The notes under the pieces were generated by a model. The model had not been told where the DNA came from. It saw only the letters and a list, made by a program, of their open reading frames with translations, and did not search any database. Shown here one piece after another: positions 17 to 40,833 of a stretch of 45,572 bases of DNA. A program made the position numbers and the translations under genes. Position 1 is the first letter of the stretch. Each line of letters begins with the position of its first letter. This DNA comes from a virus. The stretch covers positions 1 to 45,572 of IMG/VR virus record IMGVR_UViG_3300023094_000015; one strand, given 5' to 3'.

Positions 17-562
17 CTACGTCAAATTCACATACCCCGCAGTAGACTTCCCCGCTTGGACCCGTGCGAGTAGTTGCGAGGGCTTGAAGCCGAATGACTT
101 CTCGATGTGAGGGAGGTCTTTAAACGTGCGAAACTTACCACCCCATTGCCAGCCTGCAGCCTCGAACGCGGTCACCATTTCCTGCCAGTCGATTATGCCG
201 TCTTTATCGAAGTCTTTTGCTGTGTCCCAGGATAGCTCTTCAAACTTGCCGTCGCCGTCTTTATCGTACATGATCGCGAAGTCAATAGCAAGCCCGTAGT
301 TATGGAAAGAGGATCCGCCTTTAGCGTTGGTAACCTTCTGACCCGGTTGTGTGCGACCTTGCGCGTAAAGCGCGTTTTGCTCCGCTATCGTGCGAAGCCC
401 TTGCACGACGCGGATTTTCATATTAACGGGAAAACCTTTTTCGACGGCAGCAATCGTGTCAATCACTTCCTGTCGGACGAGGGGGTGTAGTTTTTGGCAA
501 CGCTCCAGCGTCACGGTATCGCGTAGTATCATAGAGCCTATAAGTTTACCTAATTCATTCAT
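17..562 (-). CDS. M15-family peptidoglycan peptidase (endolysin) with EF-hand loops
   Basis: A 181-residue peptidase that probably cuts peptide cross-links in host peptidoglycan at the end of infection. The M15/VanY zinc-site pattern is visible: SxHxxGxAxDF with His87 and Asp94, then a C-terminal His152 in PHIE, so the likely zinc ligands are H87, D94 and H152. Between them, residues 117-128 form a canonical EF-hand loop (D117, D119, D121, D125, E128), preceded by a looser D100/D102/D104 repeat. Calcium-dependent M15 endolysins are known from phage T5. There is no signal peptide, so release through a holin fits. It is the last gene of the minus-strand arm, next to the spanin and holin candidates. 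Family assignment is firm; calcium control is inferred. Confidence 0.92.
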   Translation of the reverse strand: MNELGKLIGSMILRDTVTLERCQKLHPLVRQEVIDTIAAVEKGFPVNMKIRVVQGLRTIAEQNALYAQGRTQPGQKVTNAKGGSSFHNYGLAIDFAIMYDKDGDGKFEELSWDTAKDFDKDGIIDWQEMVTAFEAAGWQWGGKFRTFKDLPHIEKSFGFKPSQLLARVQAGKSTAGYVNLT

Positions 563-635
563 TATTTCACTAAGTTACGGAAACCCGTAAATAATTGTCC
601 ATCCAACTTATTACCTTGCCAGCAAATTAATTTAT

Positions 636-932
636 ATGATATTAAAACAATTTCTCCCCGGCGGTATTGAAAACTACAAGGATCTAGGTAGTAATTTTCA
701 GATTGTGTACAAAGAGAAATCCCCTAATAGCTTCAAATTAGCTATGGAGGCTGTACATGGTAAAGATGTAGACCAAGATTTTATCGAGAAAAGCTACGCA
801 GTAATTCATCACCACCACGGATCCGGAAGCGAAGTGTTGTACAGGGCTTTCACCTATGAGTTGTTCTCGGAAGGAGGTGCCTTTTTTAAAGACTTGTCAA
901 TCGAAAATCATTCGTATCCGGTAGAGAGGTGA
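636..932 (+). CDS. Hypothetical protein, reversed against its neighbours (moron-like)
   Basis: A 98-residue protein of unrecognised family. It is encoded on the plus strand between two minus-strand lysis genes and is followed by its own hairpin terminator at 996-1018, so it looks like a self-contained unit. The start ATG follows an A/T-rich leader. The middle has four consecutive His followed by Gly-Ser-Gly-Ser; the rest is an ordinary mixed alpha/beta composition without a signal peptide or membrane segment. I see no convincing promoter in the 73 bases upstream. Function unknown; an accessory gene expressed independently of the lysis operon is an inference from layout. Confidence 0.65.
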   Translation: MILKQFLPGGIENYKDLGSNFQIVYKEKSPNSFKLAMEAVHGKDVDQDFIEKSYAVIHHHHGSGSEVLYRAFTYELFSEGGAFFKDLSIENHSYPVER

Positions 933-995
933 TTGAATTTATCGTATATTTGAATCCAGTACAACGAAAGTATTCATTATTCTTACGTTTCATTT

Positions 996-1018
996 AACCG
1001 GGTCGCTCCCGGTTTTTT
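996..1018 (+). terminator. Rho-independent terminator (plus strand)
   Basis: AACCGGG at 996-1002 pairs perfectly with CCCGGTT at 1008-1014 around a 5-base loop and runs into six T. The T-run is on the plus strand only, so it serves the gene at 636-932. Its end touches the stop codon of the minus-strand gene at 1018. Confidence 0.8.
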
Positions 1019-1533
1019 CATTTTCTTTTAACAATCCATACCCCCGCCCCTGCCAAGAGCGCACCCAACCCAAAGATCACCCAAAACCGCGTACGGGCGA
1101 TTTCCCGCCACTTGGCGGCTTCATCTGTCTTTTCCTTCAGTAGTCCCAGGGTCTTCGTTAAATCAAGCCTACACGCTGTTACTTCCGCCTGATTAACGAC
1201 TACGATAGTATCCACGCGGGTGCTTACCTCCCGGATGGTTGGACCCTGAATGAACCGGGTGATAACCATGGTATCCATAACTCGGGTAGTATCCATGTGG
1301 ACCAGACCGGGTAGCGTATCCCGAATGATCACCGTGGCCCCCGGTGTCGTCCGTTCCTTCGGCGGGTACGTGACCGCGCAGAAGTTCGCCGCAATACCCG
1401 GGTAAGCTGCAGTAGCACGCCCGAACTGGTTCGCGGCTTTGCGTTCGGAGTAGCAGGAGGACATTAGCGCACAAAGAAATACACCGCAGACCCAATAAGA
1501 GCGAATAACAGAATGGAGATTAGTATTGCCCAT
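1018..1533 (-). CDS. Putative unimolecular spanin (lipoprotein with C-terminal membrane anchor)
   Basis: This 171-residue protein has the two anchors expected of a u-spanin. The N-terminus has a hydrophobic stretch ending in ALMSSC, a lipobox-like site at Cys27. The C-terminus has one membrane helix at about residues 150-168, followed by the basic tail KRK. The region between is a periplasmic linker with predicted beta and coiled character. Such proteins link outer and inner membranes and fuse them after peptidoglycan is cut. It lies between the endolysin and the holin candidate, where spanins are expected. The lipobox is imperfect (Met at -3), so the call rests on both anchors plus context. 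It could instead be a plain structural lipoprotein. Confidence 0.6.
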   Translation of the reverse strand: MGNTNLHSVIRSYWVCGVFLCALMSSCYSERKAANQFGRATAAYPGIAANFCAVTYPPKERTTPGATVIIRDTLPGLVHMDTTRVMDTMVITRFIQGPTIREVSTRVDTIVVVNQAEVTACRLDLTKTLGLLKEKTDEAAKWREIARTRFWVIFGLGALLAGAGVWIVKRK

Positions 1534-1540
1534 AGTAGTT

Positions 1541-1834
1541 TCACCTTACCACCGGCTTTTTATCCCCGTTCTTCACATCTTCTAGTTGTTGTGCAGGCGG
1601 GTTGACGATAACGATCTCGGAGGGGGTTCCCAGGTTCTTCAGAAGATAGGAAAGCCCTGCTACCAATGCGCCTTTACCGAGTGCTGACCAGTTAAAATCA
1701 AAATTCCCGGCGTTAATGCTATCGTAGGCGATAGAGATCACCGCTCCGATTACAGCCATTAACAGGCCACGAATGAAATCCCGGCTATTGAGCTTCCAAG
1801 CTCCCGGGGAGGTTGTTACTGTTTGTTCTGCCAT
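1541..1834 (-). CDS. Putative holin
   Basis: A 97-residue protein with two likely membrane helices: about residues 21-40 (IRGLLMAVIGAVISIAYDSI) and about 53-68 (GKGALVAGLSYLL). A polar N-terminus and a charged C-terminal tail flank them. Size, two helices, and placement seven bases upstream of the spanin candidate match small phage holins, which make holes in the inner membrane to release the endolysin. Several other small membrane proteins lie next door, so which one is the holin is uncertain. Confidence 0.6.
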   Translation of the reverse strand: MAEQTVTTSPGAWKLNSRDFIRGLLMAVIGAVISIAYDSINAGNFDFNWSALGKGALVAGLSYLLKNLGTPSEIVIVNPPAQQLEDVKNGDKKPVVR

Positions 1835-1837
1835 ATA

Positions 1838-2095
1838 TTATTTTTTATCTTGTTTACGTTCTTGGTTGATTAGGACCTGGCGGATATCATTACTCATGGC
1901 ATCCATTTTTACCTCTATCTTATCGAATTTTTTGTCGCTGTTCATCTGTATGTTAAACTGGTTCACTTCCAATGCCCGCACTTTTTCTTCTAATTGCCCC
2001 ATTCCCCTGTTATGGTTGGCTATTACCGCCCCGACTGCCAGCCCCATCGCCAGGAGGCCGCATACAAATTGCCAGAGTTCGGTAGGTCGCTTCAT
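1838..2095 (-). CDS. Small membrane protein with coiled coil (lysis module)
   Basis: 85 residues: one N-terminal membrane helix (about residues 7-27), then a long charged heptad-like helix (QLEEKVRALEVNQFNIQMNS onwards) to the C-terminus. This layout resembles XhlA-type or i-spanin-like lysis accessory proteins, but I recognise no family. It overlaps the upstream gene by four bases (ATGA) and is followed two bases later by the holin candidate, so the genes are translationally linked. Confidence 0.55.
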   Translation of the reverse strand: MKRPTELWQFVCGLLAMGLAVGAVIANHNRGMGQLEEKVRALEVNQFNIQMNSDKKFDKIEVKMDAMSNDIRQVLINQERKQDKK

Positions 2096-2460
2096 GGAAC
2101 AGGTTTAGTATTAGACTGCCAAAAATAAGCCAGAAGCCCAAATAGTAACGCCCACAGGTATATCCAGTAATAATCAAACGTTCTAAAATTGTATATATAC
2201 ATTATCAGGCTAAAGATAGCCAAAAAGAGGAATGCCTGCCTCACTACCCGGTTGAATTTCGACGGATACCAAACCATAAAGGCTATCATAGTTACCAGGT
2301 AATTAACGTCGGTCATCAGGTACTTAACGTTCCACGCCCGCGTCATTGGCCTGTCAACGGCTAATATCCAGTTTTCAATGATCGTATCGCTGAAAAGACA
2401 ATGCAACTCCGCAAGCGGCAGCGTTAAGCAAAGCAGTATACCCGATAGCCATTTTTTCAC
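2092..2460 (-). CDS. Polytopic membrane protein (lysis module)
   Basis: 122 residues with about four hydrophobic segments: an N-terminal signal-like helix, one around LVTMIAFMVWYPS, one around AFLFLAIFSLIMYIY, and a C-terminal one around YWIYLWALLFGLLAYFW. The start is GTG at 2460, embedded in the stop of the upstream small gene (GTGA overlap), which supports the start choice. Function is unknown; it could be an antiholin or an alternative holin. Confidence 0.6.
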   Translation of the reverse strand: MKKWLSGILLCLTLPLAELHCLFSDTIIENWILAVDRPMTRAWNVKYLMTDVNYLVTMIAFMVWYPSKFNRVVRQAFLFLAIFSLIMYIYNFRTFDYYWIYLWALLFGLLAYFWQSNTKPVP

Positions 2461-2609
2461 GATACTGGTGGCGGCGGCGGAGGTGAAAGAGGATTTGAAC
2501 CTATCTGCATTGTTTCGCCGGGTTGGCCGTCCTTATACGTTTGCCACTCCGCTGCTACTGCAAGGGTGGCATCAATAAACGCCTGTACTTCTGTTGCTGT
2601 TGCTGTCAT
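2457..2609 (-). CDS. Small hypothetical protein with C-terminal polyproline
   Basis: A 50-residue open frame beginning MTATATEVQAF and ending in six consecutive prolines then Val-Ser. It fills the only gap between two lysis-module genes. The start lies one base from the next upstream stop region, and its TGA overlaps the GTG start of the next gene by four bases, a typical coupling signal. Codon use looks like its neighbours. Function unknown; the proline run suggests a flexible or binding tail. Confidence 0.6.
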   Translation of the reverse strand: MTATATEVQAFIDATLAVAAEWQTYKDGQPGETMQIGSNPLSPPPPPPVS

Positions 2610-2610
2610 A

Positions 2611-2910
2611 TCATTGTTTTATTTGATTTTCAATAGTTGTTAACCTTATTTTAGCCTCGCGTTGATCGAGTTCTATATTAGTAAGACGGATATTATTTAC
2701 TCTGTCGTACTCCTTTCTATCTGATTGCATCTCTCGGAGAATTCCATTATTATCCTGGCTCACTCGTTGGGCGTCATTTATTCTGCCAACCAGACTGAAA
2801 TAAACCCACGCCGCGAAAGCTACGATCCCCGCAGCTTTCCATAGCCCTCCTAAGGTCAACCCTTTTATAGGAGTGTGCTGTATTTCTACGGACGTTTTAC
2901 GTGTTGCCAT
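2611..2910 (-). CDS. Membrane-anchored coiled-coil protein (lysis module)
   Basis: 99 residues: a cytoplasmic basic N-terminus, one membrane helix around residues 24-43 (LWKAAGIVAFAAWVYFSLVG), then a charged helix to the end. It has the same shape as the 1838-2095 protein, so the two may be partners or distant duplicates. It is the first gene of the lysis group. Just upstream the minus strand reads TAACTTTG (2915-2922), a match to the Bacteroidetes -7 box, but no TTTG lies at the right distance, so a promoter here is only a possibility. Confidence 0.6.
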   Translation of the reverse strand: MATRKTSVEIQHTPIKGLTLGGLWKAAGIVAFAAWVYFSLVGRINDAQRVSQDNNGILREMQSDRKEYDRVNNIRLTNIELDQREAKIRLTTIENQIKQ

Positions 2911-3013
2911 AGTTCAAAGTTAACAAAAGAGGCGCAGAGTAGACACCCACGCCGTAAATCCAATTTTTGTCATATTCCTATGACCACTGGTAATATTGCC
3001 AGTTCGTTTAATA

Positions 3014-3346
3014 TTATTCGTTGTCATATACTGCCGGTGCTCTTTCAGTTCGTTCCGTGTCCGCAGGTTGTTGAAACAATGGCATTGATATGATCCCCAT
3101 CGTTATCGCCTTTAAAACCAATCCCGCTTTGCCTCTCACATTCATTACATCGTACATTTCTTCAATCTTTGCCTGAACCGTTCGGGGAGATAAACATACT
3201 TCTTTCCCTATCTGGTCTGATGTATAGTCAAGTGCTAAAAATTCAACAATTCGAGCATCTGTTTCGCTAAATATGAAATCTTCTGTTTCATAATAAACGA
3301 TACGTCTCGGAACCCTGGCCTCTTTAGCGTACTTTTTCTTTAGCAT
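3014..3346 (-). CDS. LuxR/GerE-type helix-turn-helix protein
   Basis: 110 residues with a LuxR C-terminal DNA-binding domain at about 27-85. SETDARIVEFLALDYTSDQI is the first helix pair and CLSPRTVQAKIEEMYDVMNV is the recognition helix region with the typical SxRTV signature. There is no receiver or ligand-binding domain; the short basic N-terminus precedes the HTH. It sits between the tailspike module and the lysis genes, so it may time late or lysis expression, but no target is visible. Such stand-alone HTH proteins also occur as small host-like regulators. Confidence 0.8.
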   Translation of the reverse strand: MLKKKYAKEARVPRRIVYYETEDFIFSETDARIVEFLALDYTSDQIGKEVCLSPRTVQAKIEEMYDVMNVRGKAGLVLKAITMGIISMPLFQQPADTERTERAPAVYDNE

Positions 3347-3348
3347 GT

Positions 3349-4056
3349 TTATTTATTCCACGTTGAAATATTCCCGTCTACATACACGGTGATCGTTGAA
3401 CCCGCAAGTACATGCGTTCGAAGTACCGCGCCGGGGTCTTTCACCGCCATTATTTGTACCGTATCTTTCGCACCACCGGGTGCCGTTAATTCGTATCTAT
3501 ATGTGCCGTTATAAAGATTAGTGGCAAGGGTACCTACGAGCGCACCATTGTGCTGTACGCCGCCTATTTGCCGCCATGTACCAATGCCCGTAAGCCGGTA
3601 GCTATCGACAGGGTAATATATCGTTGTGTCGCGTCCTGCGTCTGCCAGGGACACTTTTGACACCAGTTCAAACCAATTGAAGTTCCAGTCGCCACCGGTT
3701 GCCTGTATGCGAATAGAAGTAACACCAGCAGGAATGACAAGATCCGTTGCAATCGTTTTCCAAACGGCCCAGCCACCCGTATTAGGGACCTGGATAGAAA
3801 GCATCTTTAGCCCCGTTGAGGTGCGGATATCAAACGCGCCCCGACTAAGTGGTGAAGCAACCCGCATATTAAAAGTGTAGTTGCCTGGTGTAACGTAATA
3901 GTCCGCGTACTGCCCGGGCTGAATATAATCCCATTGTTTTGTTGAATCTGAATCCGTACCCTTTATAAATCTCGCATTGAATGAGGTGGACGATTCGACC
4001 TGTATCCGTTGCGCATTCAGCGACGTGGTGAGCAGGAGTAATAGTAGTATTCGCAT
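3349..4056 (-). CDS. Secreted-type protein with CBM6-like domain (tailspike module)
   Basis: 235 residues. Residues 1-15 form a Sec signal peptide (poly-Leu core, cut after Ala15 with Gln16 at +1). Residues about 17-135 look like a CBM6-type carbohydrate-binding beta sandwich: the stretch from YIQPGQYADYYV to the closing FNWFELV is typical of that fold. The remainder is a beta-rich region with no family I recognise. It is the last of three consecutive genes with the same kind of signal peptide and overlaps the next by one base. Carbohydrate binding is likely. Whether it is part of the virion or exported by the infected cell is unknown. Confidence 0.65.
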   Translation of the reverse strand: MRILLLLLLTTSLNAQRIQVESSTSFNARFIKGTDSDSTKQWDYIQPGQYADYYVTPGNYTFNMRVASPLSRGAFDIRTSTGLKMLSIQVPNTGGWAVWKTIATDLVIPAGVTSIRIQATGGDWNFNWFELVSKVSLADAGRDTTIYYPVDSYRLTGIGTWRQIGGVQHNGALVGTLATNLYNGTYRYELTAPGGAKDTVQIMAVKDPGAVLRTHVLAGSTITVYVDGNISTWNK

Positions 4057-4598
4057 TAGTATAATTTATTCATTTGAAGGTTCGCCACCGAAACAATCAC
4101 ACTACCCAGCGTTGGTAAAACACTTATACTCCCCCATAGCTCTAATACATCCCCCTTGGTAGCGGTATACTGAAACGTCATCGTAGCAGTTGGTGCCGAG
4201 AAAGTAGAGGCAGTAATAATAGGCGTTTGTATCGTAAACACGCTAGACGATATATCGGCCGGGGAGCGGTTCGTTCGCCGCACCTTGTAAACAATGTTCC
4301 TGCTTAGTGCCAGCGTTGCGCCCGAATAGTTCGCCAGGATATTGTACGTTACCTCATACGTCCCGTTGTCATTAAAGGTGATCCCGGGAGAAGTAGTGCC
4401 GAATTCTATTTTAGCAGGAGTAGCTGTCAGGGTGTAGGCCGTTCCCGTCCCTTGCGAATAGATATTATTACTGGCATTCCGGGTCTTGTTTAATAGTATC
4501 GTATCACCCGTACGATTGACATACATTAGGGTATCTCCCCGGATAATAAACTGTGCCGATGCTGGAAAAGAAAGCAGTAGCAATATAATTAACCTCAT
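4056..4598 (-). CDS. Secreted-type beta-sandwich protein (tailspike module)
   Basis: 180 residues. Signal peptide at 1-15 (MRLIILLLLSFPASA), cut before Gln16. The rest is beta-rich; GTYEVTYNILANYSGAT and GDVLELWGSISVLPT resemble strands of C1q/TNF-like or tail-fibre tip sandwiches, but this is a shape impression. It overlaps the tailspike gene by ATGA and the following gene by one base, so the three are one translational unit. Possible accessory fibre or receptor-binding tip. Confidence 0.6.
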   Translation of the reverse strand: MRLIILLLLSFPASAQFIIRGDTLMYVNRTGDTILLNKTRNASNNIYSQGTGTAYTLTATPAKIEFGTTSPGITFNDNGTYEVTYNILANYSGATLALSRNIVYKVRRTNRSPADISSSVFTIQTPIITASTFSAPTATMTFQYTATKGDVLELWGSISVLPTLGSVIVSVANLQMNKLY

Positions 4599-7066
4599 GG
4601 CGCGTAAAATTTATAGGTAAATGTAAAACTATATCTGTTATTGGTAGCGGTTTGTGGTAATCCTCTTACAACCGCGCGTCCGTTAACCACATCCCCTTTG
4701 ATCTGCATGGTGGTATTATCCTCGAAAGTGATATGCCCAGAAAGGTCTTGCGTAGTAGTGAGGGCTGATGCTACCGGTAAACTAACCCCTAGCTCTGTTA
4801 CCGTTAAAGAGGCGGTTGCATCTATACTGATTTCACCCCAAACCCTCACCGTATTACCGGTTTGCTGGTAGTGTGTCACATAAGCGGTTGATGCCGCTAC
4901 GTTGGTTGTATTGGTGATCGTGGGCGTATAAGTTCCCTCCACCGTGGCGGTAACGGCTGTTGAATCCATCCACGTCGGAATGCCTCCAACCACTCCTAGT
5001 TTTTGTCGTGTTGTCCCGACCCCTAGCCTCGTCAACACTCCCGACCCATTCCGGTAATAAATATCTCCGGTCGCATCGCTACCGAGCGTCATCGTTGGGC
5101 GAGCTATGACCGCCCCTGTGCCGATGGTGCCGAGGGTTACTACACCCGCATCAGATATGGTAAATACATCTGTGCCGCTCGACTGCCCAATAAATAAGGG
5201 GATACCCGATACTCGGCTATTGGCCTGTATAACTGCGTTGGAGAAGGTTGGTAGTGCCAGATCAAAGGAAGTCGTTACATCAAAGTAAGCCCCGGTAGTT
5301 ATATTGCTGCCCGATCTGCTAAGTACACGACCGAATGCTCCTACTTTTGGTCCTGACCCGTTGCCGGCGAAGGCCGTAAATGCACCGCCTATATACGCAC
5401 CGCTACTTGAATTAGCCCCATAGGTAAAGAACCCCGCCCCTGTGCCACCCGTTGCCTGGCTATTGGCTGTCGCCACCGCAGCGTTCCCGTTCAGGTTAGC
5501 ATTGGCGATATTATTATTATTCTGCGAATAGATAGCCTGTGAGTTGCCTATGCCGGTCACGCCTTCAGAGGTAACATTCAGTTGCCTGCTTGTTTCCGTC
5601 ACATTCATAAAATCAAACTGCCCACGCATAAATCCATTTACCGTTTTATACAGTACGGCAGCGTTCTCCACTTTGTTCGGCGCAATCCATATTGTACTAG
5701 CCGGTAATACTGTCCTCATAATAGAGGTGTCCTGGTTTAATATTAAAACATTTAGGGTATTTGATGTAGTCTCTAAATCATAGCCCCCTACGCCTGCGCC
5801 TCTCAATGTGTTGCCATTTAGGGTTAAATTTCTTACTCCATTGGCGTATATATGGGATAAGACGGGATTTGCCAAATATTTAGTAAACCAGTTGCCGGAA
5901 ATAATAACATCGTTACAATAAGTTCCCAGCCCCAGTATTATATCATCGGCACCGTCCACCATCGCCTCGAAATAGTTGTTTGTTATCTGCGTATTATTAA
6001 TGCCATCAATATACAATCCCCCTTGCAAATTCCTTTCGATCTCGCATTTATCAATGGTCAAATGCTGCCCGTCTACAGAATTTGAAATATACAGCCCGTA
6101 CCTGCCATTACTATCAAATCGACACGATGTAAATTCCTGGTTGAAATTCAACGTTTGGTCCGCATGGACACCATCCCTGGCGGCTCTACTAAACTTGGTT
6201 CTGAAAATATGAGAGTAGTAAATTCCGTTCCCCATTTTCAACCCATCGTAAAAACCATCAATCGTTACAAAATCCGTCTGTATACCTCCTTCGGTATATA
6301 CTCCCGCCCCTGCACTATTGCCGAACGCTCCTTGTATTTTCAGATTACGAATAGTTGATGCACTATCCTGCTCGGACAATACAGGCGATTCCGGAACGGT
6401 AATAGATATAGCGGTATCATTAGCTGACATATAAATGACCGAACTGCCATATTCGCCACCTCCCCCTAGTATGTTGATAGGGTTTTTTGACCTTCGTAAA
6501 GTCTGGGTTATATAATAAGTTCTATTAGGAGGAAAGTACACCGTACCTCTCGATGGCGTAGCGTTAATAGCAGCTTGTATTGCTGCATAATCATCTGTCA
6601 CCCCGTCTCCTACCGCCCCATAACTAAGGACATTGTTGTAAAACATGGAGTCTCTTCCTGCACCCCCACTCCCATTACTTGCTGCCGTTATCCGGCCTTT
6701 AGCATCTACGGTTAAATTGGTATTGGTATAACTGCCCGGAGTGACTGCGGTGTTCAGTAGTGATACTACGCCGCCCGTTTCGCTCAACGGTGTGGTGAAA
6801 GTGTATGTGCCCGCTCCGCCGCCGATACCGAGTATAGTATCAACGCCTATAAATAAAGTATCCCCATTTATCCGAGGTTTAGAGAACCGGGTGCGGCCTC
6901 CGCCGTAGTTAATCAGTACACCAGTGACGCCCTTAGTAGCATTCTCAATAATAAGTTCATTATTGCCTCCCACTTTTTGCAGCCGGGTAGAATCTGCCCG
7001 GATATAATAAGTGGTTTGGCCATAACTGATAGTGCTTATAAGCAACAAGAAAATAAGAAACCGCAT
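4595..7066 (-). CDS. Tailspike with pectate-lyase-like beta-helix and N-terminal signal peptide
   Basis: 823 residues. A Sec signal peptide (1-16, cut before Gln17) is followed by a linker with the phage-fibre phrase YTNTNLTVDAKGRITAAS (about 113-130). A right-handed beta-helix begins at about 148 with the pectate-lyase_3 signature SYGAVGDGVTDDYAAIQAA and continues through Asn-rich rungs to about 450. The C-terminal tip (about 728-823, from GTYTPTITNTTNVAAST) matches a domain seen at the ends of many phage tail proteins. This is probably the polysaccharide-binding or degrading receptor protein. A cleavable signal on a tail protein is unusual because tails assemble in the cytoplasm. It follows a terminator by 13 bases. 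Confidence 0.85.
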   Translation of the reverse strand: MRFLIFLLLISTISYGQTTYYIRADSTRLQKVGGNNELIIENATKGVTGVLINYGGGRTRFSKPRINGDTLFIGVDTILGIGGGAGTYTFTTPLSETGGVVSLLNTAVTPGSYTNTNLTVDAKGRITAASNGSGGAGRDSMFYNNVLSYGAVGDGVTDDYAAIQAAINATPSRGTVYFPPNRTYYITQTLRRSKNPINILGGGGEYGSSVIYMSANDTAISITVPESPVLSEQDSASTIRNLKIQGAFGNSAGAGVYTEGGIQTDFVTIDGFYDGLKMGNGIYYSHIFRTKFSRAARDGVHADQTLNFNQEFTSCRFDSNGRYGLYISNSVDGQHLTIDKCEIERNLQGGLYIDGINNTQITNNYFEAMVDGADDIILGLGTYCNDVIISGNWFTKYLANPVLSHIYANGVRNLTLNGNTLRGAGVGGYDLETTSNTLNVLILNQDTSIMRTVLPASTIWIAPNKVENAAVLYKTVNGFMRGQFDFMNVTETSRQLNVTSEGVTGIGNSQAIYSQNNNNIANANLNGNAAVATANSQATGGTGAGFFTYGANSSSGAYIGGAFTAFAGNGSGPKVGAFGRVLSRSGSNITTGAYFDVTTSFDLALPTFSNAVIQANSRVSGIPLFIGQSSGTDVFTISDAGVVTLGTIGTGAVIARPTMTLGSDATGDIYYRNGSGVLTRLGVGTTRQKLGVVGGIPTWMDSTAVTATVEGTYTPTITNTTNVAASTAYVTHYQQTGNTVRVWGEISIDATASLTVTELGVSLPVASALTTTQDLSGHITFEDNTTMQIKGDVVNGRAVVRGLPQTATNNRYSFTFTYKFYAP

Positions 7067-7078
7067 AAAAATATTTTT

Positions 7079-7104
7079 AAAAAAGGCGGGCTATTACACC
7101 CGCC
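7079..7104 (-). terminator. Rho-independent terminator (minus strand)
   Basis: GGCGGG at 7085-7090 pairs with CCCGCC at 7099-7104 around an 8-base loop. On the minus strand the stem runs into six T. It closes the head/connector transcript just before the tailspike module. Confidence 0.85.
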
Positions 7105-7110
7105 CGATTA

Positions 7111-7656
7111 TTAACTGTTGTAAGTACATTGGTCGAAGATACCCGGTGGCACATCGTACGGACATGGCAGGTCTTTGCCGCTCCATTTTACGATAACATC
7201 CCACACAACCTCCGTTGTCTTATCTTCCTGGACAGGGTTCTTAGGAATTACCTGAACCGTGCTGTCGTTAATATGAATCTGCGAACCAGTACGGTAGGCA
7301 AATTTATATTGGCGGGAATTTTTAAGCGTGTTGTAGAAAATACAATTTTGCCGGTAATTCGGATCCTGGTACTGTGCCTGAAAATTATAACCAGTCAGCC
7401 TAGTAGCCTGGTCGCCATAGCCCGGGGACTCCACTTCCGCGCCACCGTCAAACGTACCTTTGGTAGCCGGGATTAAAATGATATCGCCAGCCGCAAATCC
7501 AGCCGTCCACTCTGCGGGGTTCGATGGATCTGTGAAAGCAAAAGATGACTTAATAAAAGCCACACTACGCACACCACCTTCTTCGATTTCTTCGCAGGGG
7601 TCGCAAATATGGTCTGGTATCAGGTCGTCACAATTCGAAGGATAATATACAGACAT
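7111..7656 (-). CDS. Structural protein, putative tail tube or neck
   Basis: 181 residues, not assigned to a family. The N-terminus is Cys-rich (NCDDLIPDHICDPCEEIEE) and the C-terminus has two more Cys. The core looks beta-rich. It is the last gene of the connector group and immediately precedes a strong terminator, a usual place for an abundant tail tube protein. That role is inferred from position and size only. Confidence 0.55.
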   Translation of the reverse strand: MSVYYPSNCDDLIPDHICDPCEEIEEGGVRSVAFIKSSFAFTDPSNPAEWTAGFAAGDIILIPATKGTFDGGAEVESPGYGDQATRLTGYNFQAQYQDPNYRQNCIFYNTLKNSRQYKFAYRTGSQIHINDSTVQVIPKNPVQEDKTTEVVWDVIVKWSGKDLPCPYDVPPGIFDQCTYNS

Positions 7657-11793: not shown

Positions 11794-12426
11794 TTACTTA
11801 TTAACCGCGTAAATAATATTGGTGCGGTTCTTATAAATTACTGGCATAGATATTAGTGCATCATAGGCTTCGGCGAGTTCGGGTTTCCCGTTATACTCCA
11901 CGCAGACCATACTTACCAAAGAGAAGTCAATCTGCCGAAGTATTTCCAGCTCCATGCCCTCCACATCAATAGTCAGAAAGTCAAATTGCGGATTTCCGCT
12001 ACGTTCCAAGAGGGTAGCGAAATCAATAACGGGGATGGTTGTTTTATTGAACTCTACAACCGGGTCTCTTTCTTTGGACTTATTTTTCCAGCGTTCCGTT
12101 TCGGTTTCCTTAATCGACGATACTAAAGAATGATCACCTCCGATCAATTCCCCCGATTCATAAAAATCTGCTTCACCGTTGTAGGAGGATACACCTACAT
12201 TGTGCAACATTACCCTGCTGAATAGTTTGCAATTTTCCTGTAATTCCTTAAATGTTTTTACGCATGGCTCCACCAGTATGCCGTACCAGCCGAGTTCAAG
12301 TAACGCGCGGGAGTTCGAGAAGGTAATACCGTCGTTGGCCCCGAGGTCCATAACAACTCCCTGGCAGCCTTCAAAATAATTCAGGATAACAGTTTGTTCC
12401 CCGTGTTGGGAATAGTCTTTAATCAT
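11794..12426 (-). CDS. FkbM-family methyltransferase
   Basis: 210 residues from the ATG at 12426 (a longer frame starts at 12459 but overlaps the upstream gene by 41 bases instead of 8). It has the FkbM opening YSQHGEQTVILNYF, the SAM-binding motif VVMDLGANDGITFSNS, the acidic ILVEP, and the FLTIDVEGMELEIL block typical of the family. These enzymes usually O-methylate sugars or polyketides. Here it is the last gene of the sugar cassette, so methylation of a glycan cap is the likely job. It converges with the small plus-strand unit. Confidence 0.85.
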   Translation of the reverse strand: MIKDYSQHGEQTVILNYFEGCQGVVMDLGANDGITFSNSRALLELGWYGILVEPCVKTFKELQENCKLFSRVMLHNVGVSSYNGEADFYESGELIGGDHSLVSSIKETETERWKNKSKERDPVVEFNKTTIPVIDFATLLERSGNPQFDFLTIDVEGMELEILRQIDFSLVSMVCVEYNGKPELAEAYDALISMPVIYKNRTNIIYAVNK

Positions 12427-12727
12427 TGGTTGGTGTTTTATATTCATCATTTGGATCATAGGGATGGGAACAAAGGCCGATTAGTATGCTGCCTTTTTTA
12501 ATTTGAAAAGAATGGGTAGTAAATGGCGGAACGGTGTACAACTCCCCGATACGCATGGGGACCTTCATGTTATCCAGTATCATCAAGCAACTGCCCTTCG
12601 ACAAAATAAAATATTCGGTTTTAATCTGGTGGTAGTGCCCGCCAACAACGCAGTCCTCTTTTATTTCCAGTATTTTACCCTCTGGGAAGTCGATTAGTTT
12701 TCGGCGGTTATCTTCATTTATTGGCAT
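12419..12727 (-). CDS. Cupin-fold sugar isomerase/epimerase-like protein
   Basis: 102 residues forming a single cupin barrel. Motif 1 is GGHYHQIKTEYFILSKGS (H31, H33, E38) and motif 2 is PPFTTHSF (H72), the expected metal or acid-base residues. Cupins of this size in sugar clusters include nucleotide-sugar 3,4-ketoisomerases and WxcM-like proteins. It overlaps gmd by 14 bases, so acting on the 4-keto sugar made by Gmd is a reasonable inference. The exact reaction cannot be read from the sequence. Confidence 0.65.
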   Translation of the reverse strand: MPINEDNRRKLIDFPEGKILEIKEDCVVGGHYHQIKTEYFILSKGSCLMILDNMKVPMRIGELYTVPPFTTHSFQIKKGSILIGLCSHPYDPNDEYKTPTND

Positions 12728-13679
12728 TGGCTAATTTTAATACTTCCGCATCCACCATAATATTTACCAATTCTGCAAACTTTACCTTCGGCTCAAATCC
12801 CAACACCTTCATTGATTTGCCAGCATCACCTATCAATAGGTCCACTTCGGCAGGACGGGTAAGCGACTTGTCATACTCTACATAATCTTCGTAGTTCAAC
12901 CCCACGCGCTCAAAAGCAAGCTGCACAAACTCTTTAACCGAATGCGTTTCCCCGGTTGCTATTACAAAGTCATCCGGCGTGTCGTGCTGCATGATGTTCC
13001 ATATCCACTCAACGTATTCAGCCGCGTAACCGAAATCCCGCTTTGCATCGAGATTGCCGAGTTTCAGAGATTGGCGGATACCGGCTTTTATTTCTGCTGC
13101 CGCAATAGCAACTTTTCTTGTTAAGAACTCTTCCCCTCTGCGCGGTGATTCATGATTGAATAAGAACCCGCAGTATATTTTCATGCCGTAGCTTTCCCGG
13201 TAACAACGAGCCATGTAATAGGCAGCAGCCTTAGATACGCCGTAGGGTGAGCGGGGATAAAATGGGGTTGTTTCTGTCTGCGGTACTTCCTGCACCTTAC
13301 CAAACATTTCGGAGCTACACGCCTGGTAAATCTTGCAGTCCAATTTTAATGACCGTACAGATTCAATTATTCGCAATAACCCCAAGCAGTTTACATCCAT
13401 CGTCATACTCGGCACATCATAGCTCCACCGAACTTGGCTCATACCGGCGAGGTTATAAATCTCATCGGGCTTTACTGTTTCAATGGCGTTGTGAATAGAA
13501 CTTGCGTCCGTCATGTCGGCGGGGTGTATCGTTATTTTGCCTAACAGGTGCATAATATTTGCGTGGCCTGGTTGCGACGTGCGTCGGGTGGTGCCGTGTA
13601 CGATATACCCCTTGCTTAACAATAGTTCAGCTAAGTAGCTTCCGTCCTGACCATTAATTCCGGTGACTAATGCGATCAT
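12714..13679 (-). CDS. gmd: GDP-mannose 4,6-dehydratase
   Basis: 321 residues of the extended short-chain dehydrogenase family. It converts GDP-D-mannose to GDP-4-keto-6-deoxy-D-mannose, the precursor of fucose, rhamnose and perosamine types. Visible signatures: NADP-binding VTGINGQDGSYLAELLL (G7, G10, G13), R32-R33 after the second strand, SSEMFG at 122-127, catalytic Y146xxxK150 in SPYGVSKAAA, and the Gmd-specific NHESPRRGEEF at 175-185. Length and motifs are complete. No GDP-fucose synthase or reductase gene is obvious nearby, so the product must be finished by the cupin, an unseen enzyme or the host. Confidence 0.95.
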   Translation of the reverse strand: MIALVTGINGQDGSYLAELLLSKGYIVHGTTRRTSQPGHANIMHLLGKITIHPADMTDASSIHNAIETVKPDEIYNLAGMSQVRWSYDVPSMTMDVNCLGLLRIIESVRSLKLDCKIYQACSSEMFGKVQEVPQTETTPFYPRSPYGVSKAAAYYMARCYRESYGMKIYCGFLFNHESPRRGEEFLTRKVAIAAAEIKAGIRQSLKLGNLDAKRDFGYAAEYVEWIWNIMQHDTPDDFVIATGETHSVKEFVQLAFERVGLNYEDYVEYDKSLTRPAEVDLLIGDAGKSMKVLGFEPKVKFAELVNIMVDAEVLKLANANK

Positions 13680-13682
13680 AAT

Positions 13683-14306
13683 TTAAATTCCTTTTAAATG
13701 AAATACTACTGATTCTTTTGGTACTCCGAATGAGTCGCCAATATACGAAAAGAATGTGCCACCTAGCGACATAGGTAAACCCATTTGATTGGTGATAATA
13801 CTTCCGGCCGACATGTCGTGTCTATGATCACTCCACGACCCTTTGAACATCCCGGCGAGCATCGCTTCTTTCCATTTGGAAAAGAACTCCACACTAATAG
13901 GGTTATCGAAATCGAACCCGCAGTATCCGGCTGAAAACATCGGCATGGTCATAGCTTCGCCTCGGGTTATACCAAAGTAGTTAAGCGTAGTGTCATTGCA
14001 CCATGACCCCACATAATGCCCGGCCTCTTCCATAAAAACACCATTCTTATCCAACCACTCCCACACGGGTTCTATATTCCCAACGGCGTATACGCTGGCA
14101 TCAAGCCAAAGTATTTTCGTAAATCTTCTTCGCCTCGCTTCTTCGATAGCATATATTTTAAAGGCATAGGGGTTTTCTTGATGAGGTGGCGCGCCTACTT
14201 CTTTTTCATCTCTGAATAAAAAAATACTTTCATCTGGCAAACTTTTTTCCAGTCTTACCTGCCCAGGCCAATATCCTTTGGTTGATAAATTAACTATTGC
14301 TCTCAT
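13683..14306 (-). CDS. Putative GT-A-type glycosyltransferase
   Basis: 207 residues from the ATG at 14306; a longer frame would read a further 99 bases into the upstream glycosyltransferase. The segment RFTKILWLDASVYAVGNIEP carries a DxS-like metal site at D69, and the N-terminus RAIVNLSTKGYWPGQVRLEKSL looks like a Rossmann opening. This arrangement resembles capsular or O-antigen transferases that use a short acidic motif. Substrate unknown. It lies directly upstream of gmd and overlaps the upstream transferase by 17 bases. Confidence 0.6.
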   Translation of the reverse strand: MRAIVNLSTKGYWPGQVRLEKSLPDESIFLFRDEKEVGAPPHQENPYAFKIYAIEEARRRRFTKILWLDASVYAVGNIEPVWEWLDKNGVFMEEAGHYVGSWCNDTTLNYFGITRGEAMTMPMFSAGYCGFDFDNPISVEFFSKWKEAMLAGMFKGSWSDHRHDMSAGSIITNQMGLPMSLGGTFFSYIGDSFGVPKESVVFHLKGI

Positions 14307-14898
14307 GGTTTGGGTTTGTCCAGTGTGTGTTTGTTTCGGTTGACGCTTCTGTGATATCGGGGTTAAAATTATAGCCGTGTAAAACTTCTGGGATATGCGT
14401 TTCAAATCTTGCCAGCGGTAGAGCTTTCTTTACCCACTCCCAATCTTCGCCGTAGCTGATAGCGGGAAAAGATATTTTTTTAAACCATTTGCTCCAGGCG
14501 CAATTCGGGAAAGGAGGGCGGTTGCAGTCTAGGTACTTCCCATCTTCGGTATTGTGTTCCACTTCATTCTTTAGCCCTGCCGTAACGATAAAAGTGGATC
14601 CGTCTGCATTAAGGCACCGGGACTTAAAAGTAATCACATCTACCGCACCCTTACAGGCTTCGTAAATTTCCTCAATAGAGTACAGACTGTCGTCGTCATC
14701 AACGAACATGAAGTATTCGCCGTTGCTTATGTTTTTTAATGCTTCTCTTTTTTCGCCGATGGTTCGTTTGTAATTATCGGTCAGCATTAGGGTTTCAATG
14801 TCCTTACCATCACACATCTTCACTGTGCGGTTGTACAGTTCAATCGCAATAGTCCAGCGCGACGGGATAGAAGGTATAAGGATGGAGAGTAGGGGCAT
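14290..14898 (-). CDS. GT2-family glycosyltransferase
   Basis: 202 residues, a small soluble GT-A enzyme. N-terminal LLSILIPSIPSRW is the usual GT2 first strand, and FMFVDDDDSLYS (D67-D70) is the metal and nucleotide-sugar site. GEKREALKNISNGEY precedes it as in many GT2 proteins. No membrane segment. Shares its plan with the next gene (14898-15446), so the two are probably an old duplication. Acceptor and donor unknown. Confidence 0.8.
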   Translation of the reverse strand: MPLLSILIPSIPSRWTIAIELYNRTVKMCDGKDIETLMLTDNYKRTIGEKREALKNISNGEYFMFVDDDDSLYSIEEIYEACKGAVDVITFKSRCLNADGSTFIVTAGLKNEVEHNTEDGKYLDCNRPPFPNCAWSKWFKKISFPAISYGEDWEWVKKALPLARFETHIPEVLHGYNFNPDITEASTETNTHWTNPNHESNS

Positions 14899-15446
14899 TA
14901 GGTGTATAGTTTTCTTGTAACATACCTATAAAAATACATCGTAGCATAAATATACTTCTCCGTCTTTATTAACCCCGATTCTTTTAACCGCGTTGCATAG
15001 TCGTAATCCTCCATAAATTGCATGTCCTTGTACCCGATCTGTAAAGCAATCTCACGGCGCACCGGGGAAAGATGGTTATTGTACCTGAAGTATGATCCGC
15101 CCTTTTCTTCGTAGTTGTGGTGCATACTTATAGTAAACCGCTTTTTATTCCTGCCGTTGGTGGTGATCTGCCCTTCAAAACCAATAGCATCAGCCCCTAA
15201 TTTTTCAAAGATGTTTTTCACATACTGTGGGCTTACCGTATCATCATCGTCAATGAAGCAAACGTATTCGCCCGTAGCTTTTTCTAATAACCGTTGCCTC
15301 TTATTTCCGATACTACCGGGCTGGTCGTCTGTTAATATCTCGACAGCGTAGTTTTCTGATTGCGCGGTCAGATCAGCCACCAACGTATTGAACATGGCAG
15401 CGCGGCGCGGGATGGTGCAGATCAAAATACTAAGGGTGTGGGTCAT
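14898..15446 (-). CDS. GT2-family glycosyltransferase
   Basis: 182 residues. LSILICTIPRRAAMFNTLVADL opens the GT-A fold, GSIGNKRQRLLEKATGEYV follows, and CFIDDDDTVSP (D66-D69) is the catalytic acidic cluster. MEDYDYATRLKESG near the C-terminus resembles the ED..l..R acceptor-side motif of GT2 enzymes. It joins the next gene by a one-base overlap. Likely adds one sugar to a phage or host glycan. Confidence 0.8.
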   Translation of the reverse strand: MTHTLSILICTIPRRAAMFNTLVADLTAQSENYAVEILTDDQPGSIGNKRQRLLEKATGEYVCFIDDDDTVSPQYVKNIFEKLGADAIGFEGQITTNGRNKKRFTISMHHNYEEKGGSYFRYNNHLSPVRREIALQIGYKDMQFMEDYDYATRLKESGLIKTEKYIYATMYFYRYVTRKLYT

Positions 15447-15709
15447 ATCAGCGTAACGTTAAACGTTCTTGTTTTATAAAACATTGATTTTATCTCGCAA
15501 ACATGAGTCCACCTTGCTATCCCCATTTCATTAAATATTGGCGTTAATGAAATAGACAAATGGGGGTCGTTTTTTACTTTTTCTAAAAATAAAGATAGCG
15601 GACAATATGAATTATCATCATGTTCCGATATTGTAAGACGCTCTATAAGTCTCTTTCTTCCATCGTCACATTGCGACATATCTGGTGCTGGTAAATTACA
15701 ATAACTCAT
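15443..15709 (-). CDS. Hypothetical protein in sugar cassette
   Basis: 88 residues with no recognised motif. Five Cys/His-containing stretches are spread along it without a metal pattern. It overlaps both neighbours by four bases, so it is part of the transferase operon. It might be a remnant of a larger enzyme or a small accessory subunit. Confidence 0.5.
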   Translation of the reverse strand: MSYCNLPAPDMSQCDDGRKRLIERLTISEHDDNSYCPLSLFLEKVKNDPHLSISLTPIFNEMGIARWTHVCEIKSMFYKTRTFNVTLI

Positions 15710-16365
15710 ACCTTAAACCCCTCCTTTCTTCTTTTAATATACGTAGCCTCATCAATCTTAAACAAACTCTCTGTGTACTTCGTTTGTGCATCCTGTACCC
15801 CGTAACCCGCCGCCGGGTGAGCGTGGAAAAATATTTGTTCATTCATTTTCTTATATTGGCCATTTAAGCGGGCAACCTGTGTTCCTTCATTGTCGCAAAA
15901 CAAGGACAAATAAATCGGGTTGTATATCCATCCGGTACGGTTGAAATAATCACGACCCGCAACGTACATAATAACGATGCTTTCCTGCTTGCCTAACTTA
16001 GCCTGGTTGTCGGCAAAAGGTTCGGGGAAATGCAGGTAGTCGTCGGGTCCACAATGTTCGCGGATAATACTGTCAAAACCCTTTCGGGTAAACCAGAAGT
16101 CGTCTGAAATATCTACGATAATATCCCAACCGTCGGCGGGAATATCGCGGTTGATCGCGTGGATCTTGGAGGTAGAGAAACCTACGGCAAACCTAACTTC
16201 CGGCGTAGTGAGGTATTCCGATATTGCCGGGTCGTCCTCATCGACCTTGCCGAGAATGGTATAGGGTTCGGTGCAGTATTCTTGAATTTGCGCAACGAGA
16301 CGTTTGAACTTTTCCGGGCGCGAACGTGAGGCGAAGTTGAAAAGTATGTGTTTATTGCCGCTCAT
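15706..16365 (-). CDS. Putative GT-A-type glycosyltransferase
   Basis: 219 residues. HILFNFASRSRPEKFKRLVAQI is a common opening of small phage glycosyltransferases, and GWDIIVDISDDFWFTRKGFD holds the acidic cluster expected to bind the metal and nucleotide sugar. NEQIFFHAHPAAGYGVQDAQTKY near the C-terminus looks like the acceptor region. No membrane segment. Start at 16365, two bases from the upstream gene's stop. Confidence 0.65.
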   Translation of the reverse strand: MSGNKHILFNFASRSRPEKFKRLVAQIQEYCTEPYTILGKVDEDDPAISEYLTTPEVRFAVGFSTSKIHAINRDIPADGWDIIVDISDDFWFTRKGFDSIIREHCGPDDYLHFPEPFADNQAKLGKQESIVIMYVAGRDYFNRTGWIYNPIYLSLFCDNEGTQVARLNGQYKKMNEQIFFHAHPAAGYGVQDAQTKYTESLFKIDEATYIKRRKEGFKV

Positions 16366-17121: not shown

Positions 17122-18075
17122 TTATTTCCCCGTTGCCTTTTTATAATTTTTATATGCTGCCGTTGCCTCTACCCGCGCGACCACTTCAGCCGGGACCTGG
17201 CGAACGTTGACCGGTCGTATCTGGTGCCCGCAGTTCCAGCCGCCGCGATTGATAAAAAACGTTTCGGTATTGGTGTTGGCGATCATGCCGTAAGGGAGGT
17301 TGGTCTTGTGGTATATTTCTACTTTCTTCTGCCCACCGGTTGCGGAGGTGTAATACAAATCTTCTGCACGTAATAAGCGCGGTACTTCTGAAATATGAAA
17401 GTAGGGCTGATCCGTCATCGCATCGCAGAAATGTCGGGTGGTGTCAATATCAGTATTGTCGTATTTAAACCACTCGTACCCGAGATCGGAGGAAACCAGT
17501 TTAGTGTACTGCGCAGAGTATTGATTGAGCGAGTCGATTGTGACCTGCTTTGCATACCTGTCTAAATACCCTTTCTGCTCGGTATTAAGCAGCCCGTCCC
17601 GAAGTGCGGACGTTAATTTAGCATACGAACCCCCGGAAGTGATAGAGGTTTTTATAATATCGGTCACCCGGTCGGACACGTTCACGCCAATGCCGGATTC
17701 AGTAAGCAGATTCACGGTATCGGTAACGGCTTGCTTGCGTAGGGCTTTTAGAATCGGTCTGGGTTTAAATGTCGCCTCTTGCGTTTTCCAGTATTCATTT
17801 TGCAGGGTAGTTACTTCATTGAACGCCTTAGCAAATTCTTTTACCTCTCCCCGGTATTCCGGCGTAACAATAACGCGGTTTATTTTGGCTTTGATAGATG
17901 CCAGTATAGAAAGGTTTTTGGCCGTCGTTCTCACCTTGCCGTCATCGTACAGTTCAAGCCGGGCAATCTCTTTTTCTATTGCCTCAAACATTGACCGCTG
18001 CGCCTTCGGAATATTGCGGTTAAACTTCTTAACGGCTTTACCGATGCGGTCTAATATTTCAGAGTAGGTTGCCAT
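17122..18075 (-). CDS. Minor head protein, phage MuF/SPP1 gp7-like
   Basis: 317 residues. A helical N-terminal half is followed by the MuF-like C-terminal domain: TTRHFCDAMTDQPYFHISEV and, about 70 residues later, GGWNCGHQIRPV. The Cys/His spacing is the usual signature of these head morphogenesis proteins. They sit inside the capsid near the portal and may be ejected. It follows the portal gene by one shared base and precedes a terminator. MuF domains sometimes carry toxin domains, but none is visible here. Confidence 0.85.
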   Translation of the reverse strand: MATYSEILDRIGKAVKKFNRNIPKAQRSMFEAIEKEIARLELYDDGKVRTTAKNLSILASIKAKINRVIVTPEYRGEVKEFAKAFNEVTTLQNEYWKTQEATFKPRPILKALRKQAVTDTVNLLTESGIGVNVSDRVTDIIKTSITSGGSYAKLTSALRDGLLNTEQKGYLDRYAKQVTIDSLNQYSAQYTKLVSSDLGYEWFKYDNTDIDTTRHFCDAMTDQPYFHISEVPRLLRAEDLYYTSATGGQKKVEIYHKTNLPYGMIANTNTETFFINRGGWNCGHQIRPVNVRQVPAEVVARVEATAAYKNYKKATGK

Positions 18076-19904
18076 TAAACAATACTTACTTCCTCACTAA
18101 CAATCGGCATCCCGGTAATAGGGTCAATTTCCTCTTCCTCCACCGGTATAAGGTCCGCATTAGCCGCCGCTATCTGCTCTACCGCATAACCGGCAATAAC
18201 CGCCTTCTGCTCCTTCGCGTCTTTCTCTCCAAACTTTTTATCAGCTTCGATAGCGCGCTGCACGAACTCGTGAATATTGGAGCTGATTACATACGTTTCC
18301 AGGGTAATGCCTTTATTACTTAACCGGCTCATTTTATCATCTTCAGGAATATTGGCAAGCGGGTCAAGTGATAAGACCAGTTGCACTAATTCCCGTATAG
18401 CGGGGTCGTTGTTAAACGCCTTACCCGCAAACTCTACCTCCACCGCATTGGTGATAACCGGGTTTGCCTTGCTTTCCTTCAGGCTCTTCAACTGCTCTTC
18501 CAAATGCGTAGAAGAAAGTATATCATACTTCTCCGGCACCGCAATTTTCGGCACCATTTCTTTTATATCTTCCTTGTTGTAGATCATGCCGTACCTGTAA
18601 AGCGCGATCATATAATACCCCCAATCCATACAGCGCACCAGGTCCTCGGCAATAGAGTGAACCGTGTTATTTAATTCATCCTTATCCACTTCTTTCGCTA
18701 CTCCAGACTGCGCCTGTGGCGTGCTGGCAATAAACTCGAAATTGATAGAGGCAAGACCATTGGTGATATGCGACGCAACACTTTCCTCTTGCAGCTTAAT
18801 AATTTCTACATCTTTTTCTATAAAGCCCGCAGGCGGCATCGGTACATTACCCTGCCCCTCTACCGAATTAGTAGGACGCACCATAATTTTACTATACGGC
18901 CCTGCTACAACATAGCCGTTCTTGCAACCCTTGTTATCACAGCCGCATTGCGAGTCAATAGAAGCATCGCAGCCTACGTGCCATAATGGATTGTTGATCT
19001 TGCCGGTTCCGTTACAGCGCGTACACTCGTGCTGTGAGAACTCCCACCGCTCCGGGTACATGTGCATGACCTTCGCGGCCTGCAGGTCGCTGTATTCTCT
19101 TATAGCCTCGTCGAACTCTGGTATGATACCTGATATGCGGGATTCATATAACACCCTGTCTGCGGTAGCATCGGCAATAACCGCCCCTAATTTATATACG
19201 GGCAATTCCCCTAACCCATGCTCATAATCGACCTTCGGCTCCATCGTGCCGCGCCCGTCGGTCTGGTCATATCGGGTAATGCGCTCGGTAGTCACCACAT
19301 AGAACGACTTGCCGGGGAAAGCTCCTTTAGCAGTTACATACATGCAACCGGAAGGGTTTTTAAGCACCGCGTAATCCTGGTACACGTAATCGAGCACATG
19401 CTCCGCGTCGATGATCTGTATAACCGGTTTCAGGTATTCATTCTCCGGTATCTGGACCTCCTTTGGATGGCAGAACATAACGGCATTGGGATCCGTTAAA
19501 TATTTTTTAAGCAGTACCGCAAAAGCCCAGTTGGTAACGGAGCTAAATTGCGGGTAATTTACTTCGCAGTAATCTTCCAATTTCTCTCCTTCGGGTATTC
19601 GCGGCCATTCGCCCTCATAACGGATAGACCAGTCGGATGACCGGCGTATCTTCTGCAAGCTCGAAACTATCTTACCGAAATAGGGCTTTGTTTTCGGCAC
19701 AAATATTTTCTTCCGGTAACACAACACCTCTTCCGGTTCGTTGGGCCTACGCTCATTCAATAAGTCTCCGGGGAATAACCCGTCAGCATGTACCAGCATG
19801 TCTTTAGCCTCATTTACAGAACGCTCGTAAAAGCAGTGCCGGTACTTCAATTCTTCGCCGAACAAGTTTTTTAATTCAATAGGTGTAAATTCTAACTTAG
19901 GCAT
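18075..19904 (-). CDS. Portal protein with DnaJ-like Cys cluster
   Basis: 609 residues, the expected size and place of a portal (next to the MuF gene). N-terminal helical wing, then stem-like region with FIEKDVEIIKLQEESVASHI and FIASTPQAQSGVAKEVDKDELNN, which matches the clip/stem of Bacteroidetes-phage portals. Unusually, residues 294-327 contain CTRCNGTGK ... C312 ... C320GC322DNKGC327, similar to a DnaJ CxxCxGxG zinc motif, with the order C294, C297, C312, C320, C322, C327. It probably forms a zinc knob on the portal surface. The portal role is strongly inferred from context; the zinc site is read from the sequence. Confidence 0.8.
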   Translation of the reverse strand: MPKLEFTPIELKNLFGEELKYRHCFYERSVNEAKDMLVHADGLFPGDLLNERRPNEPEEVLCYRKKIFVPKTKPYFGKIVSSLQKIRRSSDWSIRYEGEWPRIPEGEKLEDYCEVNYPQFSSVTNWAFAVLLKKYLTDPNAVMFCHPKEVQIPENEYLKPVIQIIDAEHVLDYVYQDYAVLKNPSGCMYVTAKGAFPGKSFYVVTTERITRYDQTDGRGTMEPKVDYEHGLGELPVYKLGAVIADATADRVLYESRISGIIPEFDEAIREYSDLQAAKVMHMYPERWEFSQHECTRCNGTGKINNPLWHVGCDASIDSQCGCDNKGCKNGYVVAGPYSKIMVRPTNSVEGQGNVPMPPAGFIEKDVEIIKLQEESVASHITNGLASINFEFIASTPQAQSGVAKEVDKDELNNTVHSIAEDLVRCMDWGYYMIALYRYGMIYNKEDIKEMVPKIAVPEKYDILSSTHLEEQLKSLKESKANPVITNAVEVEFAGKAFNNDPAIRELVQLVLSLDPLANIPEDDKMSRLSNKGITLETYVISSNIHEFVQRAIEADKKFGEKDAKEQKAVIAGYAVEQIAAANADLIPVEEEEIDPITGMPIVSEEVSIV

Positions 19905-19907
19905 GGC

Positions 19908-21913: not shown

Positions 21914-21915
21914 AT

Positions 21916-40448: not shown

Positions 40449-40639
40449 CAAGAGTTCCTGACCTCGCTGTTTATATGTTCTTTAGTTGCGGCGTTGTACT
40501 TATAATTATGGCCGTGGGTATGTTATGTGTAAACATAACTGTAGCCAAGAACGAACTTGAAGAGGCGAAGCTAGATACGGATATGTATAGACAACAGTCT
40601 GAATATTTGGCTAAAAAACTAAAAGAAGCAATACGATGA
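40445..40639 (+). CDS. Membrane protein with helical tail
   Basis: 64 residues. Membrane helix (FFSCGVVLIIMAVGMLCVNI) then a charged helix (ELEEAKLDTDMYRQQSEYLA). Its start is coupled to the preceding micro-protein by ATGA. Unknown function. Confidence 0.5.
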   Translation: MTRVPDLAVYMFFSCGVVLIIMAVGMLCVNITVAKNELEEAKLDTDMYRQQSEYLAKKLKEAIR

Positions 40640-40833
40640 GTACTATAACGCAACGAGCTCTGAATCCAATAGTTAATATGTTCTATTGGGGAGAGGGGAG
40701 GTACTTTATTTTGACACTAAGTTTGTTGTTAGATAAATTATTAGCCCTGCCGGTAAAAGAAGTTTGTGTCGGGGCGTCAGTAAGTGAATATATATTCGAA
40801 GTAATTGTCAAACTGATAAAAGAAACAGCATGA
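40636..40833 (+). CDS. Small hypothetical protein
   Basis: 65 residues with a hydrophobic middle (FILTLSLLLDKLLALPV) that could be a weak membrane segment. Overlaps both neighbours by four bases. Unrecognised. Confidence 0.45.
   Translation: MSTITQRALNPIVNMFYWGEGRYFILTLSLLLDKLLALPVKEVCVGASVSEYIFEVIVKLIKETA

Follow-up and report, generated by a model that had tools for sequence, protein, structure and literature searches.

Three consecutive genes of a siphovirus-like phage, among them a tailspike gene, encode proteins with Q-rule signal peptides. Export of these fibres, followed by a stay in the periplasm and joining of the virions at lysis, is the best account that we can give of them, and our confidence in it is evenly balanced. 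The window analyzed here is the whole stretch of DNA, 45,572 bp in length, and corresponds to a complete virus record of IMG/VR; its terminase, tape measure, portal, capsid and tail genes lie on the minus strand. The minus-strand order runs from a putative tail-tube gene through the three signal-bearing genes to a gene with a LuxR-type HTH and then the lysis region, which encodes an M15 peptidase. The relevant features are as follows.

7111..7656, minus strand: putative tail-tube gene directly upstream of the spike, assigned by position and conservation, without a family match
7078..7105, minus strand: hairpin with a T run, resembling an intrinsic terminator, in the gap that separates tail-tube gene and spike
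4595..7066, minus strand: tailspike gene, 823 aa, with a Q-rule signal peptide (PF13229, 1.2e-16; PF12708, 1e-9; phrog_2234 tail spike, 7e-9)
7019..7066, minus strand: spike signal peptide, residues 1-16, MRFLIFLLLISTISYG, then Q17 (signal predictor)
6827..7018, minus strand: module at the N-terminus of the mature spike (residues 17-80), conserved among secreted proteins of phages and of Chitinophagaceae
5759..6634, minus strand: pectate-lyase-like/beta-helix spike body, residues 145-436 (domain matches)
4595..4598, minus strand: ATGA stop/start overlap of the spike and 180-aa genes (sequence)
4056..4598, minus strand: 180-aa protein, Q-rule signal peptide at residues 1-15, window 4554-4598 (open reading frame and signal predictor)
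3349..4056, minus strand: 235-aa protein, Q-rule signal at residues 1-15 (window 4012-4056), CBM6 at residues 33-132 (CBM_6, 4.8e-14)
17..3346, minus strand: regulator and lysis region downstream of the three genes, with the LuxR-type HTH gene, small membrane proteins, a lipoprotein spanin candidate and the M15 peptidase

The first-pass annotation had reported three consecutive genes with signals of 15-16 residues and A or G before Gln, and all three were found where it had placed them. The N-termini are MRFLIFLLLISTISYG followed by QTTYY (823 aa), MRLIILLLLSFPASA followed by QFIIR (180 aa) and MRILLLLLLTTSLNA followed by QRIQV (235 aa), each combining a positive N-terminus, a hydrophobic core, A/G at -1 and Gln at +1. 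The SignalP-type check was run with our own rule set, which is blind to Gln at +1, and it flagged 3/3 proteins. Beyond these three, it flagged only one other of the window's main genes, at 40636-40833; this call is weak and non-Q and needs a later start codon. Random N-termini of the window composition passed the predictor in 0.28% of cases and passed with Q at +1 in 0.01%, while the chance of Gln in 3/3 is ~8e-5 at the window Gln frequency of 4.4%; these values rule out a chance origin of the signals. Gln is found at +1 in ~71% of Bacteroidota signal peptidase I substrates (PMC5837995), and we observed it in 23/24 distinct signals of Bacteroidota phage fibres. The cleavage motif and this Gln are kept, with the core drifting among hydrophobic residues. 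A dual start yielding a cytoplasmic form was also considered and rejected, as no ATG, GTG or TTG immediately follows the signal, and Gln is the first residue of the conserved module.

The identification of the longest product as a beta-helix tailspike is supported by the PF13229, PF12708 and phrog_2234 matches and by its place in the tail module, and its pectate-lyase-like body follows an N-terminus that stays constant while the C-terminal bodies are swapped. It shares a common fold family and a modular build with the beta-helix tailspikes (phrog_2234, PF12708/PF13229). Unlike this spike, known tailspikes are, to our knowledge, not Sec precursors. No recognizable family was found for the 180-aa protein. 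The CBM6 domain of the third protein scored 53.2 bits with PF03422 (curated cut-off, 28.9), and no relatives of either protein were found among the viral contigs searched. The ATGA overlap at 4595-4598 and the TAATG overlap of the 180-aa and 235-aa genes at 4056 are consistent with translational coupling of the three genes, in line with their initial description as one translational unit. Sites similar to the terminator-like hairpin were found in the related phages L082, L083 and L181.

Elsewhere in the window, the gene order at 17122-27660 is unusual, with the tape measure and distal tail genes between terminase and portal and not behind the tail tube. A sugar/glycan block (GDP-mannose 4,6-dehydratase, FkbM methyltransferase and a glycosyltransferase-like gene) lies at 11794-16365, between the scaffold and portal genes, and might modify host or virion glycans; glycosyltransferase-like genes occupy the same position in L181. 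Runs of G at both contig ends (1-9 and 45565-45572) are possibly a sequencing or assembly artefact.

The N-terminal module of the spike was traced through related genomes. Phages L082-L085 were found via the capsid protein, and searches with the module brought in L088, L096 and L181, as well as L148, L149 and L151. This places the module in seven related phages or contigs and in three other (pro)phages or fragments, namely L148, L149 and L151, whose structural genes are different. The gene right behind the tail tube in L082-L085 encodes a Q-rule signal and then the same ~60-residue module, and a Q-rule signal is found on the post-tail-tube gene of every relative checked (L082, L083, L084, L085, L088 and L181). 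In every intact homologue, phage or host (~60), the signal directly precedes the module, which was seen only behind such a signal. The bodies that follow include pectate-lyase-like, GDSL esterase and other types, a combination of constant N-terminus and swapped bodies that is expected of spikes. L096 is filed under a Candidatus Saccharibacteria MAG and carries a Chitinophagaceae-type phage spike; it is probably misbinned. No match to the module was found in PDB, NCBIfam or Pfam, and its AlphaFold2 model (pLDDT 69, pTM 0.36) was too weak for a fold search.

The same signal, the same ~60-residue module and fibre-like C-termini also occur in proteins encoded by Chitinophagaceae chromosomes. Unlike the spike gene, the genes concerned belong to the host, lie outside prophages and are arranged in tandem, in some cases next to very large RHS-like proteins. 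The arrays were found in 16/246 family genomes sampled and the module in 14/398 genomes sampled at the order level, both counts including a few matches that are the prophages L148, L149 and L151. Many chromosomal copies adjoin SusC/SusD-type genes or RHS-like genes of very large size and have no phage genes around them, and one pair of module proteins (L097) carries S74 chaperone domains. As the chromosomal proteins are secreted proteins of the host, the signal and module together form a true secretion unit. At several loci (L146 7846-17000, L138, L150 5502-16000, L180 and L144), genes for secreted proteins of ~770 aa and ~366 aa and for a giant RHS-like protein are neighbours of the secreted fibre-like genes; the clusters with the giant protein could be a polymorphic toxin system or a surface system. 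We rejected a single recent capture from the host, because the arrangement is conserved across relatives; the module tree gives no direction of transfer between phage and host.

A separate and independent indication of entry of the fibres into the periplasm comes from the Bacteroidota O-glycosylation motif D-S/T-(A,I,L,M,T,V), which is used only on noncytoplasmic proteins (PMC12871550). Compared with shuffles, the three exported proteins of the window carry the motif above chance (12 vs 4.7 expected), while in the remaining structural and packaging proteins it falls below chance (7 vs 17.5 expected; Fisher p = 1e-5, exported vs other proteins). In the related phages, we counted 58 motifs vs 24.7 expected in exported fibres and 6 vs 19.1 in head and tail-core proteins (p = 1e-14). 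Two signal-less L082 fibres have 1 motif vs 2.4 expected, and host Q-rule secreted proteins are enriched 2.4-fold. The excess holds outside the module (39 vs 23.9 expected). Within the module, the spike has the motif at residues 25, 69 and 76, and the first and last of these positions carry it in 32/33 and 28/33 homologues. Glycans are probably attached at these motifs, judging from the sequence pattern and the known host pathways. With a signal in every intact homologue, near-universal Gln at +1 and this enrichment, the original assignment of the three proteins to Q-rule signal peptidase I is well supported.

Similar rows of genes are found in cultured phages. Cellulophaga phages phi10:1, phi19:1 and phi46:3, phage Ingeline and phi18:3 (L184 41847-48878, L188, L189, L191 and L196, respectively) have 3-5 consecutive signal-bearing fibre genes, nearly all Q-rule. 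As in the window, the fibre or spike rows of phi10:1 and phi19:1 (Assiduviridae), phi18:3 (Pachyviridae) and Ingeline (Duneviridae) lie between the tail core and the lysis genes. The Cellulophaga rows differ from the window in that the N-terminal modules are unrelated, the O-glycosylation motif is not enriched and the records are silent on export. The structural proteomes of the Cellulophaga isolates were characterized in Holmfeldt 2013, as stated by PMC11946311. In phi10:1, the five consecutive fibre genes gp091-gp095 all have Q-rule signals, and the GenBank notes of gp091-gp094 give experimental MS/MS as the source of the annotation; among eight head and tail-core proteins with the same kind of note, the signal is present in 0/8 (Fisher p = 0.002). 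The pattern is the same for phi19:1 gp101-103 and phi18:3 gp085-087, and the MS-noted phi19:1 gp104 has a signal without Gln at +1. In total, ten Q-rule products of phi10:1, phi19:1 and phi18:3 are recorded in GenBank notes as MS/MS-detected in virions, in preparations that may include co-purified vesicle proteins. The motif stands at 0.33-0.7 of expectation in the Cellulophaga signal-bearing fibres, so its enrichment is a trait of the present phage group, and O-glycosylation is unsupported as a general reason for fibre export.

Signal-less versions of such spikes also exist. The spike bodies of phi4:1, phi17:2 and the crAss-like phi14:2 are 44-49% identical to that of phi10:1 gp093 and of the same pectate-lyase kind, but they have another N-terminus and no signal peptide and are the cytoplasmic-route versions; those of phi4:1 and phi14:2 were found in virions by MS/MS. 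Export hence goes with the N-terminal unit and is not required by the spike body. No signals were identified on the fibre genes of B40-8, P12002L, P2559S, P12024L and the examined part of phi38:1, and the many cultured Bacteroidota phages that make signal-less fibres were counted against the export route. In the cultured Flavobacterium phage FCL-2, gp71 (L100 45363-45806) is a secreted Q-rule protein of 147 aa with the bacterial fibre-like motif VGIATTTPTETLDVNG, encoded far from the tail genes.

A C-terminal motif shared among fibres led to metagenomic phages with apparently non-Bacteroidota hosts, and these also have signal-bearing fibre genes. There are three in each of L005 (7677-11559) and L061 (1270-5900), two in each of L067 (7401-11722) and L004 (7168-11122), and two of fibre type plus one of 76 aa in L006 (4996-8626); those of L010 (8393-10669) are tail-fibre-like. 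Gln is not always at +1 in these six phages. The export route may thus be broader than the Bacteroidota.

In the route that we favor, the three proteins would form an adhesion apparatus (the beta-helix spike, the CBM6 protein and one of unknown kind) synthesized as Sec precursors, which would leave the cytoplasm through the host Sec translocon. Host signal peptidase I would cut before Gln and host glutaminyl cyclase would cap the new N-terminal residue; cleavage and pyroglutamate capping are inferred from known host pathways. The fibres would then fold in the periplasm, probably O-glycosylated at D-S/T-x, until holin and endolysin mix cytoplasm and periplasm and the fibres can attach to otherwise finished virions. 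Such attachment at lysis would have to outrun dilution, which counts against it. The first-pass annotation had set cytoplasmic virion assembly against export to act outside the cell. This contrast is probably false, since Q-rule fibres are MS/MS-recorded virion proteins in Cellulophaga phages; export and virion membership go together there and, by analogy, probably here. The fibres are thus probably part of the virions of this phage, by analogy because the spike module shows no visible relationship to the N-termini of the Cellulophaga fibres. As the module is also found in non-phage Chitinophagaceae secreted proteins, its partner need not be a virion.

This last point favors a role solely outside the virion, at the infected-cell surface or after release at lysis, in receptor masking, superinfection block or stripping of polysaccharide for progeny exit. 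The periplasmic motif signature, the CBM6 domain and the terminator that parts the three-gene unit from the tail-tube gene fit such a role as well. We nevertheless consider it unlikely, given the virion records for analogous fibres in three Cellulophaga phages, the constant position within the tail genes and a swapping of bodies like that of virion spikes. The signal could also be inefficient or retained, leaving a cytoplasmic virion pool in which the hydrophobic N-terminus is perhaps an assembly anchor. The signals are short (15-20 residues) and virions of related systems do contain fibres, but a cleavage motif and Gln+1 kept despite the drifting core, the 23/24 signals with this Gln and the lack of an internal start directly behind the signal make this quite improbable, and the motif enrichment behind the signal speaks for an actual stay in the periplasm. 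Least probable, and by our estimate very unlikely, is a moron, a host secreted-adhesin cassette carried for lysogenic conversion outside the infection machinery. The tandem arrays in the sampled Chitinophagaceae and order-level genomes would supply such a cassette; against it, the genes keep the same place in related phages, the module appears independently in three other (pro)phages, and the short-module tree, with its long branches, does not show the phage rows nested in one host lineage.

Tailspikes and the Q-rule are already known, and phage-encoded Q-rule proteins were noted as host-secretion-adapted in Porphyromonas gingivalis phages; those are five genes of unknown function, with tail fibres not named among them (PMC10367356). 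What appears to be new is the secretory signal on rows of virion fibre genes, together with the periplasmic motif signature. No earlier description of either, or of a class of tail fibres with signal peptides, was found in the literature searched.

The assembly of tailed phages is taught as entirely cytoplasmic. Our results suggest that some tailed phages pass their host-binding fibres through the bacterial secretion pathway before these join the particle. More tentatively, and with some doubt, we propose a two-compartment class of tailed phages with a cytoplasmic head and tail core and with Sec-exported, cleaved and pyroglutamate-capped periplasmic fibres (O-glycosylated in Chitinophagaceae phages), the halves joining only at lysis. 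The export route can be tested now, as cultured phages and MS data sets of their virions are available. If fibres use the Sec route, recombinant fibres produced without export may miss the native form, and signal peptidase, glutaminyl cyclase and periplasmic glycosylation would all have a part in shaping host-range determinants. If the two-compartment reading is true, virions would be unable to bind receptors or lose their DNA before release.
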